64,000 nt of DNA from Myxococcales bacterium (GTDB taxonomy: Bacteria > Myxococcota > Myxococcia > Myxococcales > Myxococcaceae), in the NCBI GenBank assembly GCA_016191815.1, contig JACPVI010000081.1:62001-126000 (forward strand). Direction: 5' to 3'. The notes below the pieces were generated by a model. It was not told the origin of the DNA, searched no databases, and saw only the letters and a program-made list of their open reading frames with translations. Position 1 is the first letter of the stretch; each line of letters begins with the position of its first letter. This document shows, one piece after another, positions 5,806 to 56,172 of the stretch. The translations under genes were made by a program, and so were the position numbers.

Positions 5806-6161
5806 GGGGGCGAAAAGGGTTCGACGGGGGCACAGATGTCCCAGACGCGTGTCGAGCATCGCTCGGAGCTCGTAAATCCCTGGGCGAAAGCACAAAAGCC
5901 AACGACAACGTTGAGCTGGCGCTCGCGGCCTAACAAGCCGTGACACCCGGTCCTCCCGATCTCGGCCCGTGGGTCGGGGCAGGGCCGTCAGAATGCGGGC
6001 TGGCTGCCGGGTGAGCCTGGGCGCTCGGCGGCGAGATCACCAGGAACCTCTGCCGGGGATCCCGCCCACGGGAGGCTCGGCGGAGCAAGAAACGTGGGCT
6101 ACACACGTAGGGTCGACGGACGGATGGCTTCCGGACGGGGGTTCGATTCCCCCCGCCTCCA
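5806..6161 (+). ncRNA. ssrA: tmRNA (transfer-messenger RNA)
   Basis: The 5' end GGGGGCG pairs with CGCCTCC at 6154-6160 to form the acceptor stem (one G-U), followed by discriminator A 6161. The T-arm GGGGTTCGATTCCCC lies just before it, and the conserved 5' block GTTCGACGGGGGCACAGATG is at 5819-5838. The mRNA-like part reads ANDNVELALAA then TAA (5898-5933), a typical proteolysis tag ending in ALAA. A pseudoknot-rich region follows. CCA is not encoded after 6161, so it must be added by the tRNA nucleotidyltransferase. tmRNA rescues stalled ribosomes with SmpB; smpB is not in this window. The exact resume codon is uncertain by one residue. Confidence 0.95.
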
Positions 6162-6182
6162 TGCCGTAAGTAGTGGAAGTAG

Positions 6183-15357: not shown

Positions 15358-17653
<2,296 letters not shown>

Positions 17654-17699
17654 GGTCGAGCGCCGGATGGCGGCCGCCCTCGAAGCTGGCCGCGAACCG

Positions 17700-19139: not shown

Positions 19140-19164
19140 CGCTCCCCCCGCGCCCTAGAAAAAG

Positions 19165-19375
19165 TCCCCCGCCGTCTGGCCGTGTGCGCAGCGTCTATTG
19201 AACCCTTCAGTTTCAGGTGGGGACCTGTGTTCGGAGAGCCTTAGGCTTCCCTCTCCAAGGAGGGCTTGCTCATGGCCCCCGAGGCGGCCCCCGGTGCCAA
19301 CGTATCGGTTCGAATTTCCGCTGCCCATCACGCACCCCGCAGGGGACAGCCCTTCCTATGCCATGGCCCTCCTAA
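19165..19375 (-). ncRNA. ssrS: 6S RNA
   Basis: Read on the minus strand, the segment shows the landmarks of proteobacterial 6S RNA in order. GGGCTGTCCCCTG lies near the 5' end (about 19338-19350). CCTCGGGGGCCATGAGCAAG then leads out of the open central bubble, followed by GGGAAGCCTAAGGCTC. CCCCACCTGAAACTGAAGGG and GGTTCAA follow near the 3' end. 6S RNA mimics an open promoter and sequesters sigma-70 RNA polymerase in stationary phase. Its position just upstream of the 5-formyl-THF cyclo-ligase gene supports the call. The ends are estimated by alignment in memory to the E. coli molecule and may be off by 10-20 nt; no clear promoter was found. Confidence 0.78.
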
Positions 19376-27436: not shown

Positions 27437-28855
27437 CTACAGGTCGACGAGGAAGACCTGGCACGCCTGGTCGAGCAGCTCCTTGGAGAGCGCCGGAGGT
27501 ATTTGGCGGTACCTCGCCGAATCCTTGATGAGTTGCACCAGGTCGCGGGGGTGGCAGGCGCGAAGCTCCATCTGCCTCGGCTTGTAGTAGTGCTCGATGA
27601 GGTAGGTCACCGCCTGGTCGACGTAGGGGACGCCTGCCGCGTCGCAGACCCGCCGGAAGATCTCCCGGTACGCCTTCTCGTCGGGGTTGCCGACTTCGAT
27701 CTTGTACTTGATCCGCCGGAGGAAGGCCTCGTCCACCAGCTCCTTGGGATCGAGGTTGGTGGAGAAGACGATGAGCTGGTCGAAGGGGATCTCGAACTTC
27801 TTGCCGGTGTGCAGGGTGAGGAAGTCGATCCGCTTCTCCAGCGGGACGATCCACCGGTTGAGCAGGTCGGTGGGGTGCACCTTCTGCCGGCCGAAGTCGT
27901 CGATGAGCAGCATTCCTCCGTTGGCCTTGACCTGGAATGGGGCCTCGTAGAAGCGGGCGGTCTCCGAGTAGATGAGGTCCAAGGTCTCCAGGGTCAATTC
28001 ACCGCCCACCACCACCGCCGGCCTGCGGCAGAGCAGCCAGCGGTTGTCCATCTCGAAAGTCTGGCGCCGGCCCGCGGAGTCGCGCCCGGCCTCGAGGGGG
28101 ATGGGCGAGTGGTTGAGGCTGTCGAAGACCTTGATGATCTGGTTGTCGATCTCCAGGCAGTGAGGCACGAAGGTCTCGCCGCTGAACATCGAGGAGACCG
28201 CCTCGGCGAGCGAGGTCTTCCCGTTGCCGGGCGGTCCGTAGAGGAAGAGGGACCGGCTGGAGTTGACCGCCGGCCCGAGCTTGTCCACCAGGGCCTGGGG
28301 GACCACCAGGTGGGAGAGGCCCATGGAGAGGTCCTCCCGGCTGACCACGGGGGCCTCCTGGCTCTGGCTGGTGATGAGGGCGTTGTACTGCTCGATTGGC
28401 ACGGGCGCTGGGCCGACGTAGGTGTTGCGGCCCAAGGCGTCGCGGGCGTACTCCCGGCCCTTCTCGGTGAGGACGAACTCCACCGATGCCCGTCCGAAGC
28501 CCTTGCCGCCGCGGAGGTCGGTCAGCTTCTCCGAGGTGAGGAAGTCGATCACCTTCTCCACCACGCCCGCCCAGGGCAGCCGCATCTCCTGGGCGATCTC
28601 CACCCCGGTGCCGCTGCCCGAGTAGTAGAGATACTTGAGCGCGATGTCGGCCAAGAGCCCGATCTTCAGCCCGGTATCCTCGAGCGCCTTGGGCTCCTGG
28701 GGCGCCACGTCGAGGATCGAGGGGTTCTCGAGGTTGAAGGGGTTGGCGTTGAAGTTCTCCGCCGTTCCCGGGGCGTGCGTCTTCTCGTAGTTCCCGGTGT
28801 CGAGATCAGCAGGATCTTCCTCGCCCAGCCTCGGTCTGTGGGTGGTGGTCGGCAC
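27437..28855 (-). CDS. AAA+ ATPase with N-terminal winged-helix region
   Basis: 472 residues from GTG 28853-28855, the first start downstream of the palindromic repeat. Residues about 45-135 look like winged-helix modules (EIAQEMRLPWAGVVEKVIDF, VEFVLTEKGREYARDAL). The ATPase core has Walker A YGPPGNGKTSLAEAV, Walker B GGMLLIDDFGRQ, sensor IVFSTNLDPKELVDEAFLRR and a C-terminal helical lid (CHPRDLVQLIKDSARYRQIP). Soluble; probably remodels a protein or nucleic-acid complex. I know of such proteins in myxobacteria but cannot name a function. The Fic-like gene lies downstream, 81 bp away, so cotranscription is possible. Confidence 0.8.
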   Translation of the reverse strand: MPTTTHRPRLGEEDPADLDTGNYEKTHAPGTAENFNANPFNLENPSILDVAPQEPKALEDTGLKIGLLADIALKYLYYSGSGTGVEIAQEMRLPWAGVVEKVIDFLTSEKLTDLRGGKGFGRASVEFVLTEKGREYARDALGRNTYVGPAPVPIEQYNALITSQSQEAPVVSREDLSMGLSHLVVPQALVDKLGPAVNSSRSLFLYGPPGNGKTSLAEAVSSMFSGETFVPHCLEIDNQIIKVFDSLNHSPIPLEAGRDSAGRRQTFEMDNRWLLCRRPAVVVGGELTLETLDLIYSETARFYEAPFQVKANGGMLLIDDFGRQKVHPTDLLNRWIVPLEKRIDFLTLHTGKKFEIPFDQLIVFSTNLDPKELVDEAFLRRIKYKIEVGNPDEKAYREIFRRVCDAAGVPYVDQAVTYLIEHYYKPRQMELRACHPRDLVQLIKDSARYRQIPPALSKELLDQACQVFLVDL

Positions 28856-28871
28856 GGACCGATCATCTCCC

Positions 28872-29010
28872 AGTCGAGGGTCGAGGGTCGAGCGTCGAGT
28901 GGAACCGTCCAGCGATCGTTCAGCGCCTCTGGACGCCCAAGGTCGACGGAAAGACCGTCGAACGCCCAACGGGCGCGCGACGCGGCACGCTCGACCCTCG
29001 ACCCTCGACT
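28872..29010. repeat. Palindromic element, copy A, with perfect 24-bp terminal inverted repeats
   Basis: 28872-28895 and 28987-29010 are exact reverse complements (24 bp) built from GTCGAGG and GTCGAGC units. The 91 bp between them include a smaller perfect stem, TCGACGG-AAAGA-CCGTCGA (28942-28960). The element sits between ilvE and the AAA+ gene, ending just before the ilvE stop. It carries no coding signal. A similar element lies at 56015-56150 and a solo arm at 17609. A non-autonomous mobile element or structured extragenic repeat is the best reading. Confidence 0.75.
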
Positions 29011-29015
29011 CTCAA

Positions 29016-29963
29016 CTAGACGTAGGTCATCCACTCGGCGTACTTCGCCTCGTGACCGCGCACCAGGCGGAAGAAGCGCTCCTGGACCTCGCGGGTGATA
29101 CGACCCGGCTTGCCTCCGCCCACCGCCCGGTTGTCCACCTCGCGCACCGGGGTCACCTCGGCCGCGGTGCCGGTGAGGAACACCTCGCTGCCCACGTACA
29201 GCGCGTCGCGCGTGAAGGTCACCTCCTGCACCTCCACCCCCATGTCGCGCAGGATGTGGATGATCGAGTCGCGGGTGATCCCCGCCAGGATCGGCGAGGA
29301 GAGGGGCGGCGTCTTCACGATGCCCTCCTGCGTCACCAGGAAGATGTTCTCCCCGGACGCCTCCGCCACGAAGCCCGAAATGTCCAGCATGATCGCCTCG
29401 TCGTACCCCGCCAGCACCGCCTCCCGCTTCGCCAGGATCGAGTTCACGTACTGCCCGGTGATCTTCCCCCGCACCATGTTCACGTTCACGTGCATGCGGG
29501 TGAAGGAGCTGACCTTGGCCCGGATCCCCTCCTTGAGGCCCTTCTCACCCAGGTAGGCGCCCCAGTCCCAGGCCGTGATCGCCACCTTGGTCGGGTTCAC
29601 CGCCCCCAGCCCCATCGCCCCATCGCCCATGAAGGCGATCGGACGGAGGTAGGCCCCGTTGGCGAACCGGTCGCGCTGCTGCCCGAGCACCTCCACGCAC
29701 GCCTGGGTCACCTCCTCTTCGGAGTAGGGCACCTTCAAGAGCACGATGTGCGCCGAGTCGTAGAACCTCCGGATGTGCTCCTTCAGCCGGAAGATCGCCA
29801 GCCGGCCGTCCTTGGTCTTGTACGCCCGGATACCCTCGAACACCCCCAGCCCATAGTGGAGCGCATGGGTCATGATGTGGACCTGGCCCTCCTCCCACTT
29901 CACCAGCTTTCCGTCGATCCAGATCTTGTCGGCGCGCAGCACTTCGGTCGAGGTCGAGCTCAA
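29016..29963 (-). CDS. ilvE: Branched-chain amino acid aminotransferase
   Basis: 315 residues, the standard length of class IV PLP aminotransferases. It interconverts leucine, isoleucine and valine with their keto acids using glutamate. Seen are [50 protein letters not shown], the PLP Lys region [39 protein letters not shown] and [16 protein letters not shown]. Branched-chain keto acids feed the iso-fatty acids that are abundant in myxobacteria. ATG 29963 gives a normal start. It stands alone, with a palindromic repeat right after its stop. Confidence 0.95.
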
Positions 29964-53986: not shown

Positions 53987-56008
53987 GTGACCGGCAAGAT
54001 GAACAAGAAGAAGGCCACCGCGCTGCTCGAGCAGGCGAAGCTGCACCTCTCCTTGGGGCAGCACGAGAAGGCGGAGGCGGTGATCAAGGAGGTGGCCTAC
54101 GAGGCCGACCTCCGCTCCTCGGTGCTGTTCGCGGTGCTGGCCGACGCGCAATCCGGCCAGGACCGCACCGCGGAGGCGATCGGGACGCTGGAGGAGGGGC
54201 TCCGCCGCTTTCCGCGCGACGCGGACCTCGAGGCGCGAATGGGCCAGGCGCTGCTGGAGCAGGACCGGGTGGAGGAGGCCTTGGAGCGCTTTGCGCGCGC
54301 GCGGGAGAAGCTGGGGCGCGACCCGAGCTTCCTCACCCAGCACGCCTTCGCGCTGATCCGCGGCGGGCGGCTGGATCAAGCGGAGTCGGCGCTCACCACC
54401 GCGCTGGGAAGGGGGGCGGGCGCCGAGGCCAAGCTGGTCTTGGCGGTGGCGCGGGGGAAGCGGGGGCTCTACTCCGAGGCCGAGGAGATGGCGGCGCGGA
54501 TCGAGGAGGCGAGCAAGTCGGTGCGGCTCACTGCGGCGGCGAGGGCGCTTCGGGCCGATTGCCGGCTCTTCATGGGCGACGCGAAGGGGGCGCTCGAGCT
54601 CTGGAAGGTGCTTCGGGCCGAGGGCCAGCTCGACGACGGCCAGCTCGGTCACATGGCCTACGCCGCGGAGCTATCAGGAGAGAGCGCGCTGTGCGACGAG
54701 CTGTCCAAGGAGCGCCTCGAGGGCACTCCGACTTCGGAGGATCTGTTGCTGTTCGCGCAGATCGCCAACCTGCGAGGGGACGGGGAGGAGGCGCAAAGGC
54801 GGCTGGAGGCTTCGGAGGAGGCTCCTGGGGAGCGGCACCCGGGCCACGGCTTCGAGGTGTTGGCGACGAAGGGGAGGGCGCTGCGGCTGACGATGAGGCG
54901 GGGCGAGGCGAGGGCGGCGTTGGAGGAGGCGGCGGCGATGCCGGAGTTCCAGTCGGCGCGGTTGGGGCCGAAGGTGCACATCGACTTGGGGCATCTGGCG
55001 GCGGAGGAGGGGGACTTCGACCGTGCGGCGGACCGCTTCAAGGCGGCGCTGGCGATGGACGCGGAGGATCCGGAGGCGAAGCGGGCGCTCTCGCTGACGG
55101 AGCGGCGGGTGGCCTGGCGCGCGGAGGTGGAGGCGTCTGCGGAGGCGAAGGTGGAGGCGGCGAAGGCGGAGGCGGCGGCGATGCGGCGCCGCTTTCAGGT
55201 GCGCGAAGGTGAGCTGGAGGCCTTGAGGCGGGAGCTGGAGCGGGTGAAGGCGGCGCAGCGCGAGGCGGAGGAGAAGGCGCGCAAGGCGGAGGAGGAGGCG
55301 CGCAAGGCGGAGGAGGAGGCGCGGCGGGCGGCGGAGGAGGGGAGGGCGGCGCAGGAGCAGAAGGTGAAGGAAGAGCTCTTGGCGCGCGAGCGGGAGTGGG
55401 AAGAGAAAGCGGCGGAGAACGTGGATCGGGCGTTGGGGGAGGCGGCGCTGAGCTGTCCCTTGCCGCTGCGAAACCTCTTGATGGTGGCGGAGAAGACCTA
55501 CCAGACGGCGCTGTACACCGAGCTGCCCGCGGCGGCGGTGGCGGTGTTGTACTCGGGGGCATTGGAGCGGGCGCTGTTCGTGTGGTTCGTGGAGCGGTTC
55601 GACCGCTGGCTATCGGAGGGGGGGCGTCGGGGGCCGTTCCTCTCCGGGGCGGTGAGGGAGCGGCGGGGCAAGCGGGTGGAGTACTTCGACCATTTCGTGG
55701 AGGCGTTCGACCATGAGCGGGCGGGGCGTGCTCCCTCGATGGGGGAGGTGGGGCGGGTGCTCTCGAAGCGGAACGAGCCCTACCTCAAGCCGTTCCGCGA
55801 CTTCCTAGAGGAGAGCCACAAGTTGCCGGACGGCTTCTACGACGAGCTGGCGTCCTTCGTGCAGTGGAGCAAGGAGCGGCTGAGGGATCCGGCGGCGCAC
55901 GGGCGGGGCATCGAGATGGGCTACGACGAGCTGAAGCGATTCCGCGAGCAACTCCTCTTCTCCTTCGGCGCGCACGGCAAGGGAGTGCTGAGGATGTTGA
56001 TGGGGTAG
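53987..56008 (+). CDS. TPR and coiled-coil protein of unknown function
   Basis: 673 residues from GTG 53987 (ATG 53999 is also possible). Residues about 5-370 are TPR-like repeats (ATALLEQAKLHLSLGQHEKA, HIDLGHLAAEEGDFDRAADR and others). Residues about 380-490 are a Glu/Lys/Ala coiled coil with tandem ARKAEEE units. The C-terminal 180 residues form a compact domain (LRNLLMVAEKTYQTALYTEL, YSGALERALFVWFVERFDRW, WSKERLRDPAAHGRGIEMGY) that I do not recognise. Soluble. The gene follows the GH57 gene by four bases, so it is probably the last gene of that operon. A scaffold role is inferred. Confidence 0.78.
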   Translation: MTGKMNKKKATALLEQAKLHLSLGQHEKAEAVIKEVAYEADLRSSVLFAVLADAQSGQDRTAEAIGTLEEGLRRFPRDADLEARMGQALLEQDRVEEALERFARAREKLGRDPSFLTQHAFALIRGGRLDQAESALTTALGRGAGAEAKLVLAVARGKRGLYSEAEEMAARIEEASKSVRLTAAARALRADCRLFMGDAKGALELWKVLRAEGQLDDGQLGHMAYAAELSGESALCDELSKERLEGTPTSEDLLLFAQIANLRGDGEEAQRRLEASEEAPGERHPGHGFEVLATKGRALRLTMRRGEARAALEEAAAMPEFQSARLGPKVHIDLGHLAAEEGDFDRAADRFKAALAMDAEDPEAKRALSLTERRVAWRAEVEASAEAKVEAAKAEAAAMRRRFQVREGELEALRRELERVKAAQREAEEKARKAEEEARKAEEEARRAAEEGRAAQEQKVKEELLAREREWEEKAAENVDRALGEAALSCPLPLRNLLMVAEKTYQTALYTELPAAAVAVLYSGALERALFVWFVERFDRWLSEGGRRGPFLSGAVRERRGKRVEYFDHFVEAFDHERAGRAPSMGEVGRVLSKRNEPYLKPFRDFLEESHKLPDGFYDELASFVQWSKERLRDPAAHGRGIEMGYDELKRFREQLLFSFGAHGKGVLRMLMG

Positions 56009-56014
56009 GGGCGA

Positions 56015-56150
56015 TCGAGCGTCGAGCGTCGAGCGTTGAGTGGGCCGCCGAGTGCCGTCGAGGGCTCGACCGTCCTTGGTCGACGGGAAGGCGTCAAGGC
56101 GCTCGACCGTCGCTTGACCGTACACTCGACGCTCGACCCTCGACCCTCGA
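56015..56150. repeat. Palindromic element, copy B, with 28-bp terminal inverted repeats
   Basis: 56015-56042 and 56123-56150 are reverse complements with three mismatches in 28, built of GTCGAGC/GTCGAGG units like copy A. The middle contains TCGACGGGAAGGCGTC, related to the inner stem of copy A. It fills the gap between the TPR gene and apt. The outer right arm is nearly identical to the outer arms of copy A at 28872. Confidence 0.72.
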
Positions 56151-56172
56151 CTGAGTAGTCTCGCCCCCGCCG

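Follow-up and report, generated by a model that had tools for sequence, protein, structure and literature searches.

The palindromic elements dispersed over the window, i.e. the 64,000-nucleotide stretch of a Myxococcaceae genome analysed here (G000:C75:62001-126000), are probably MITE-like, ORF-less derivatives of a small putative mobile element carrying an IVP gene. According to the best explanation, the fuller form of this element would consist of an arm, an IVP/S23 four-helix-bundle gene (PF05635) and an inverted arm, each arm being made of four heptamers and inner motifs. The evidence comprises the family with its arms, an IVP gene lying between complete arms, versions built on other heptamers, including plasmid-borne ones, orthologous sites empty of the element, and placement at stop codons.

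A sequence-only reading of the window had recognized two palindromes (copies A and B) and one solitary arm, and all three were found again with small coordinate shifts. Copy A (28873-29016) separates the stop side of an ilvE-type class IV aminotransferase gene (29016-29942, minus strand) from an AAA ATPase gene (27437-28855, minus strand). Its left arm (28873-28900, plus strand) reads GTCGAGG GTCGAGG GTCGAGC GTCGAGT and is followed by the inner motifs CCGTCCAGCGA and TCGTTCAGCGC with an 11-bp spacing (28905-28926, plus strand). The right arm (28989-29016), read on the minus strand, is GTTGAGA GTCGAGG GTCGAGG GTCGAGC, its first G doubling as the final base of the TAG that ends ilvE. The inverted ends reported earlier for this copy are present, but the right one extends one heptamer further than had been described (GTTGAGA, 29010-29016). 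Copy B (56014-56151) starts 5 nt past the stop codon of a TPR protein gene (53987-56008, plus strand) and ends about 20 nt ahead of a phosphoribosyltransferase gene, with a left arm ATCGAGC GTCGAGC GTCGAGC GTTGAGT (56014-56041, plus strand) and a right arm at 56124-56151 (minus strand). The one-armed copy (17608-17660, plus strand), composed of four heptamers and degenerate inner motifs, lies over the 3' end of thiC at 17608-17653, and the thiC reading frame continues about 14 codons into it; on recount, its arm differs from the left arm of copy A at 2 of 27 positions, and not at the three previously counted. The window copies carry no PF05635 ORF. No Rfam family was found at the palindromic elements in a search of the window, in which Rfam places tmRNA and 6S RNA genes at 5806-6164 and 19162-19348.

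The search of the genome and of related myxobacteria that had been called for at that stage returned about 76 elements in this genome, 37 with two recognizable arms and 39 with one, and orthologous sites that were empty wherever tested in the relatives. The genome is represented by a 6.77-Mb assembly, 98.8% complete, whose closest named relatives are Myxococcaceae/Archangiaceae MAGs. BLAST with copy A as query gave 80 matches at about 40 places, and a covariance model search gave about 77 loci, nearly all of which were inspected individually, each with 2-kb flanks. A genome-wide scan of the 6.77 Mb with three GTCGAGN units (up to 2 mismatches) yielded 265 matches versus 1 for the reversed control pattern, placing the family far above chance.

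The anatomy of the element was deduced from an alignment of 28 full copies. One arm spans about 56 nt and is laid out as four heptamers GTCGAGN, a short gap, the motifs CCGTCSAGCG and CCGTCCAGCG 11 bp apart, and an inverse motif; the centre of the element is GGTCGACC, followed by the mirror image of the arm. Each arm thus includes two inner GTCSAGC motifs spaced by 11 bp. Exactly four heptamers (4 x 7 = 28 bp) are found in 100 of 113 arms, a number so nearly fixed that the arm is not a variable-number repeat. A purine stands directly 5' of the arm in 108 of the 113, and the preferences for the seventh base of the heptamer differ by position in the array. Conservation is sharply divided between motif and spacer, as 87 columns average 95% identity across copies versus 46% for the 31 others, and the mismatches per column have a variance of 29.8 for a mean of 5.1. 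Copy A had been considered recent or under selection because of its exact ends; a recent origin is not supported, since no pair among the 28 core copies exceeds 85% identity, which also excludes a recent burst. Arms conserved in the absence of recent copies may reflect either selection in place after insertion or renewal by some unseen process. At two loci (L012 and L014), inverted arms 1.6-1.8 kb apart surround unrelated genes and correspond to two separate elements each.

The elements are preferentially located at stop codons. Gene contexts were established with a purpose-written codon-usage gene caller, whose simplicity means that individual distances may be off while the overall stop-codon pattern is not in doubt: 28 elements lie between convergent genes, 43 between tandem genes and 6 between divergent genes, and one is unpaired. 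Sixty-two arms start between -5 and +13 nt from a coding stop on the same strand, with modes at -1 (TA|GTCGAG), 0, 4 and 5. An arm stands at a stop codon in 50 of 76 elements, versus 8.6% expected from the intergenic space in the window (p about 1e-34). Some elements are inserted inside nusG-rplK, infB-DUF503 and rpoN-hpf, or just ahead of atpA, where 8-36 nt remain to the next start. All the copies inspected are between protein genes or at their ends, and not in a 23S rRNA helix.

Several junctions occupied in this genome are empty or shorter in its relatives. The ilvE-AAA intergenic region measures 160 nt in the window versus 24 nt in the closest relative (L101, ilvE 83% identical), and the order of the two genes, with the AAA ATPase after ilvE, is the same in Myxococcaceae lacking the element. 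None of the relatives compared has the element at this junction. When peptides of the gene pairs were queried jointly against nine relatives and the junctions were retrieved, the same pairs stood 3-275 nt apart with no GTCGAG element. Empty or shorter orthologous junctions were found at ilvE-AAA, nuoN, rpoN-hpf, infB and rpoH. The GTCGAG arm with four heptamers, sought in 195 genomes of the phylum, is essentially limited to this one, and the element is absent from every other Myxococcaceae examined. GTCGAGA tandem arrays occur in G037 and G056; those of G037 were dismissed, being mostly simple tandem repeats distinct from this element.

One member of the family encloses a gene. This copy of 721 bp (G000:C17:21492-22212) consists of two inverted family arms around an ORF of 148 aa belonging to PF05635, the 23S rRNA intervening sequence protein (IVP/S23), with an E-value of 5e-33. 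Both of its 56-nt arms are complete (57 nt aligned; score 71 versus a shuffled maximum of 27). It is the sole IVP-bearing family copy found in the genome, all others being ORF-less. Taken together, the many dispersed copies, the empty orthologous sites and this gene-bearing copy with the same 56-nt arms support the earlier suggestion of a non-autonomous mobile element. The only PDB relative by sequence, and the best PDB match, of the encoded IVP is the uncharacterized Xcc0516 of X. campestris (2GSC). To our knowledge, no catalytic activity is known for PF05635, and S23/four-helix-bundle proteins still lack an assigned function. Second, divergent IVP genes were also observed in this genome (L269, G000:C39:19698-20003) and in G036 (L266, contig C41); these are flanked by inverted repeats as long as 86 and 226 nt, respectively, which are not heptamer arrays.

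IVP genes are also accompanied by heptamers in other genomes. When arrays up to 220 nt from the gene were compared with control windows 340-560 nt away, a period of 7 was detected beside 12 of 16 chromosomal IVP genes versus 0 of 16 control windows, and beside 11 of 14 plasmid genes versus 2 of 14. The same test gives 1-2 loci for period 8 and none for period 9, and about one quarter of the IVP genes are without detectable heptamer arrays. The plasmid set is independent and includes named Nostoc, Calothrix, Anabaena and Picosynechococcus plasmids, among others. On contigs chosen by number, 24 heptamer arrays were counted in 215 kb of IVP-positive genomes and no array in 324 kb from genomes negative for IVP, an association that is partly biased at the genome level because six genomes (G204-G209) were first noticed through their arrays, and in which the IVP-negative set comes mostly from one family; for periods 8-11, the counts are close to zero in both types of genomes. 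The tested genomes with known heptamer arrays have PF05635, except G172 (5 control-pattern matches, 75% complete), and the family is absent from most relatives without tested arrays.

In these other genomes, the IVP gene often lies between inverted arrays of a different heptamer, such as TTTTCGG, TCTTCGG, CCTGGTT or ACAGANG. The IVPs of two genomes sharing the heptamer TTTTCGG are 83% identical, and an IVP 70% identical from the same genome is associated with a heptamer differing by one base. Several IVP genes of cyanobacterial plasmids are placed between cistrons, with heptamers starting no more than a few nt from the upstream stop codon. On such plasmids, IVP (four-helix-bundle) genes with 7-bp-periodic flanks were observed within CRISPR-Cas operons, where they separate either cas10 from cmr3 or cas6 from cas4 (L318:556-985; L324:385-1066; L325:216-993).

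Arrays of other units were also seen. In the gene pair L053, occupied by one copy in the genome analysed here, four GTCTWCN heptamers stand 3 nt from a stop codon in the relative G151. This motif has about 40 matches in G151 and none in eight other relatives, the usual unit number being again four; GTCTDCC four-heptamer arrays of G151 (L201-L230) stand 0-6 nt past stop codons, with GCAGGC after them. An IVP whose arms match was not found in the G151 assembly. G145 (L089-L100) displays GAGCTNY arrays of variable unit number, often as inverted pairs beside stop codons, which were revealed by the reversed control pattern. A run of at least 12 near-perfect AACCTCG heptamers is present near an IVP-like gene in G041 (L257:2185-2290). 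A Gemmatirosa plasmid (L329) includes an IVP relative whose inverted-repeat flanks are apparently 8-bp periodic (AGGAGGGC), possibly representing another unit length. Mobility dependent on a reverse transcriptase, as in DGR/avd-like systems, was also considered; RVT_1 was not found in G036, G037, G145, G151, G207 and G208, and this possibility was rejected because a reverse transcriptase is not common to the element-bearing genomes.

The RNA folds of the elements are highly stable (z -6 to -8), as those of any palindrome would be, and 28 of the 78 contexts are convergent, as would suit either terminators working in both directions or structural RNA stems placed between converging genes. However, the arms vary independently, so that base pairing is not what maintains them. 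Indeed, compensatory change is absent: none of the 63 variant motif cells is mirrored in the opposite arm, the heptamer spacer bases of the two arms agree in 36 of 111 cells versus 44 expected from shuffling, and RNAalifold retains a consensus of just 15 pairs. The conserved trait is the sequence, not the stem. Moreover, the elements within nusG-rplK, infB-DUF503 and rpoN-hpf or before atpA cannot be strong terminators, because the few nucleotides left to the next start leave no space for a promoter. Terminators or RNA stems are hence most unlikely and were rejected on the missing covariation and on positions interrupting essential operons. The structured extragenic repeat proposed from the sequence alone is not supported either, as the arms do not covary. 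It is likewise very unlikely that the heptamers are simple-sequence repeats generated by polymerase slippage and kept as G-quadruplexes, as proposed for the GGGAATC repeats of Xanthomonas. The latter look alike, with a four-unit mode, convergent pairs and positions 0-50 nt past stop codons (PMC4692102), but the four G3 tracts of a canonical quadruplex are possible in only 1 of 113 arms, and the quadruplex reading was rejected on that count. In addition, the unit number is nearly invariant (100/113), the inner 11-bp-spaced motifs and the centre are conserved too, and the GTCTDCC arrays of G151 prefer four units without G3 runs. REP/BIME-type repeats mobilized by a RAYT (Y1) transposase are barely conceivable. 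The elements do resemble them in being palindromic, intergenic and close to stop codons; yet they are arrays of heptamers devoid of the GTAG/CGTC tag, and the REP-associated Y1 transposase that the sequence-only reading had suggested seeking is missing from the 98.8% complete assembly (Y1_Tnp, PF01797, 0 matches, with positive controls), for which reason this candidate was rejected.

The sequence conservation itself has to be reconciled with a mobile origin. Motif columns 95% identical beside saturated spacers 46% identical are not expected from a neutrally decaying dead MITE, and near-identical copies are lacking, so there is no sign of recent movement. The elements might be host-useful sites for a sequence-specific protein binding double-stranded DNA at gene 3' ends, for instance in chromosome organization or as a supercoil or transcription boundary, now under selection whatever their origin. 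Motifs kept across copies where spacers are not, arms varying independently, the heptamer number fixed at four, the spacer bases that depend on position, the purine before the arm and the rarity between divergent genes all agree with such sites. On the other hand, none occurs in the other Myxococcaceae examined, so that such a function is not ancestral, a recognizable arm has been lost in half of them, and both the IVP-bearing copy and the link with IVP in other phyla are left unexplained. Host binding sites are thus rather unlikely as an account of the elements, but they can be compatible with, and additional to, an origin from an IVP element.

In the IVP-element explanation, the IVP would recognize its own heptamers as sequence and not as a stem, and may promote the spread of the element as well as of its ORF-less derivatives. 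Copies would survive mainly right after stop codons because neither coding sequence nor the next ribosome-binding site is broken there, and the arms would stay conserved because they are still recognition sites. The 40-50-nt flanks of the copies, which are old, display neither a consistent target-site duplication nor a common target sequence.

Among the nearest known parallels is the 23S rRNA intervening sequence (IVS) of Coxiella burnetii, a presumably selfish element of 428 nt that has an S23p ORF and tandem heptamers and whose terminal inverted repeats form a 28-bp stem (PMC4990558). Both systems combine an S23/IVP ORF within a few hundred bases, adjacent tandem heptamers and 28-bp (4 x 7) inverted ends. 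Nevertheless, the Coxiella IVS is inserted in helix 45 of the 23S rRNA and excised by RNase III (PMC4990558), whereas the elements described here are scattered copies at protein-gene ends, all but one are ORF-less, and the heptamer sequences differ. In Xanthomonas, the GGGAATC repeats mostly comprise four heptamers and form 70-75 convergent inverted pairs per genome, 0-50 nt from the stop on the coding strand and rarely between divergent genes (PMC4692102). This layout is shared by the GTCGAG elements in its four-heptamer mode, its inverted pairs and its position just past the stop codon on the coding strand; in contrast, the Xanthomonas units are G-rich and read as quadruplexes in that text (PMC4692102), which the GTCGAG arms are not. 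The consulted passages of PMC4692102 make no connection between the GGGAATC repeats and an IVP gene; X. campestris too has an S23/IVP protein (Xcc0516, 2GSC). Dispersed intergenic heptamer arrays are further known as the TAACTGA arrays of Beggiatoaceae and the heptanucleotide repeats of cyanobacteria (PMC4679880, PMC4692102), those of Beggiatoaceae standing before start codons and being rarely inverted (PMC4679880). Nostoc and Calothrix plasmids carry IVP genes with heptamers on their flanks. With MITEs, the elements have in common a short size, the lack of an ORF, inverted ends, many dispersed copies and a single longer copy (721 bp) in which those ends enclose a gene, but target duplication is not seen and the partner gene belongs to PF05635 and not to a known transposase.

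A broader proposal is tentative and somewhat more doubtful than secure. Widespread tiny mobile elements may have as their sole protein a four-helix-bundle IVP reading a 7-bp "dialect" that is specific to the lineage and repeated four times at each end, and may place themselves and their ORF-less derivatives beside stop codons without a recognizable transposase, integrase or reverse transcriptase. Many bacterial heptanucleotide repeats might then be traces of such elements, and rRNA intervening sequences one specialized branch. In many bacterial genomes, heptanucleotide repeats are reportedly the most frequent of the long simple repeats (PMC4679880, PMC4692102), and the origin of 23S rRNA intervening sequences is unsettled (PMC4990558). 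In a literature search of journal papers accessible without subscription, no paper joining heptamer repeats, IVSs and IVP genes was found. The link brings together repeats of 7 bases, intervening sequences of rRNA and orphan genes for four-helix bundles, so far separate topics, which all tend to sit right after stop codons. If they belong to one element, the three topics would become testable together, assays of PF05635 function could use DNA or RNA targets of defined sequence, and matched pairs of protein and heptamer would provide a natural specificity series.
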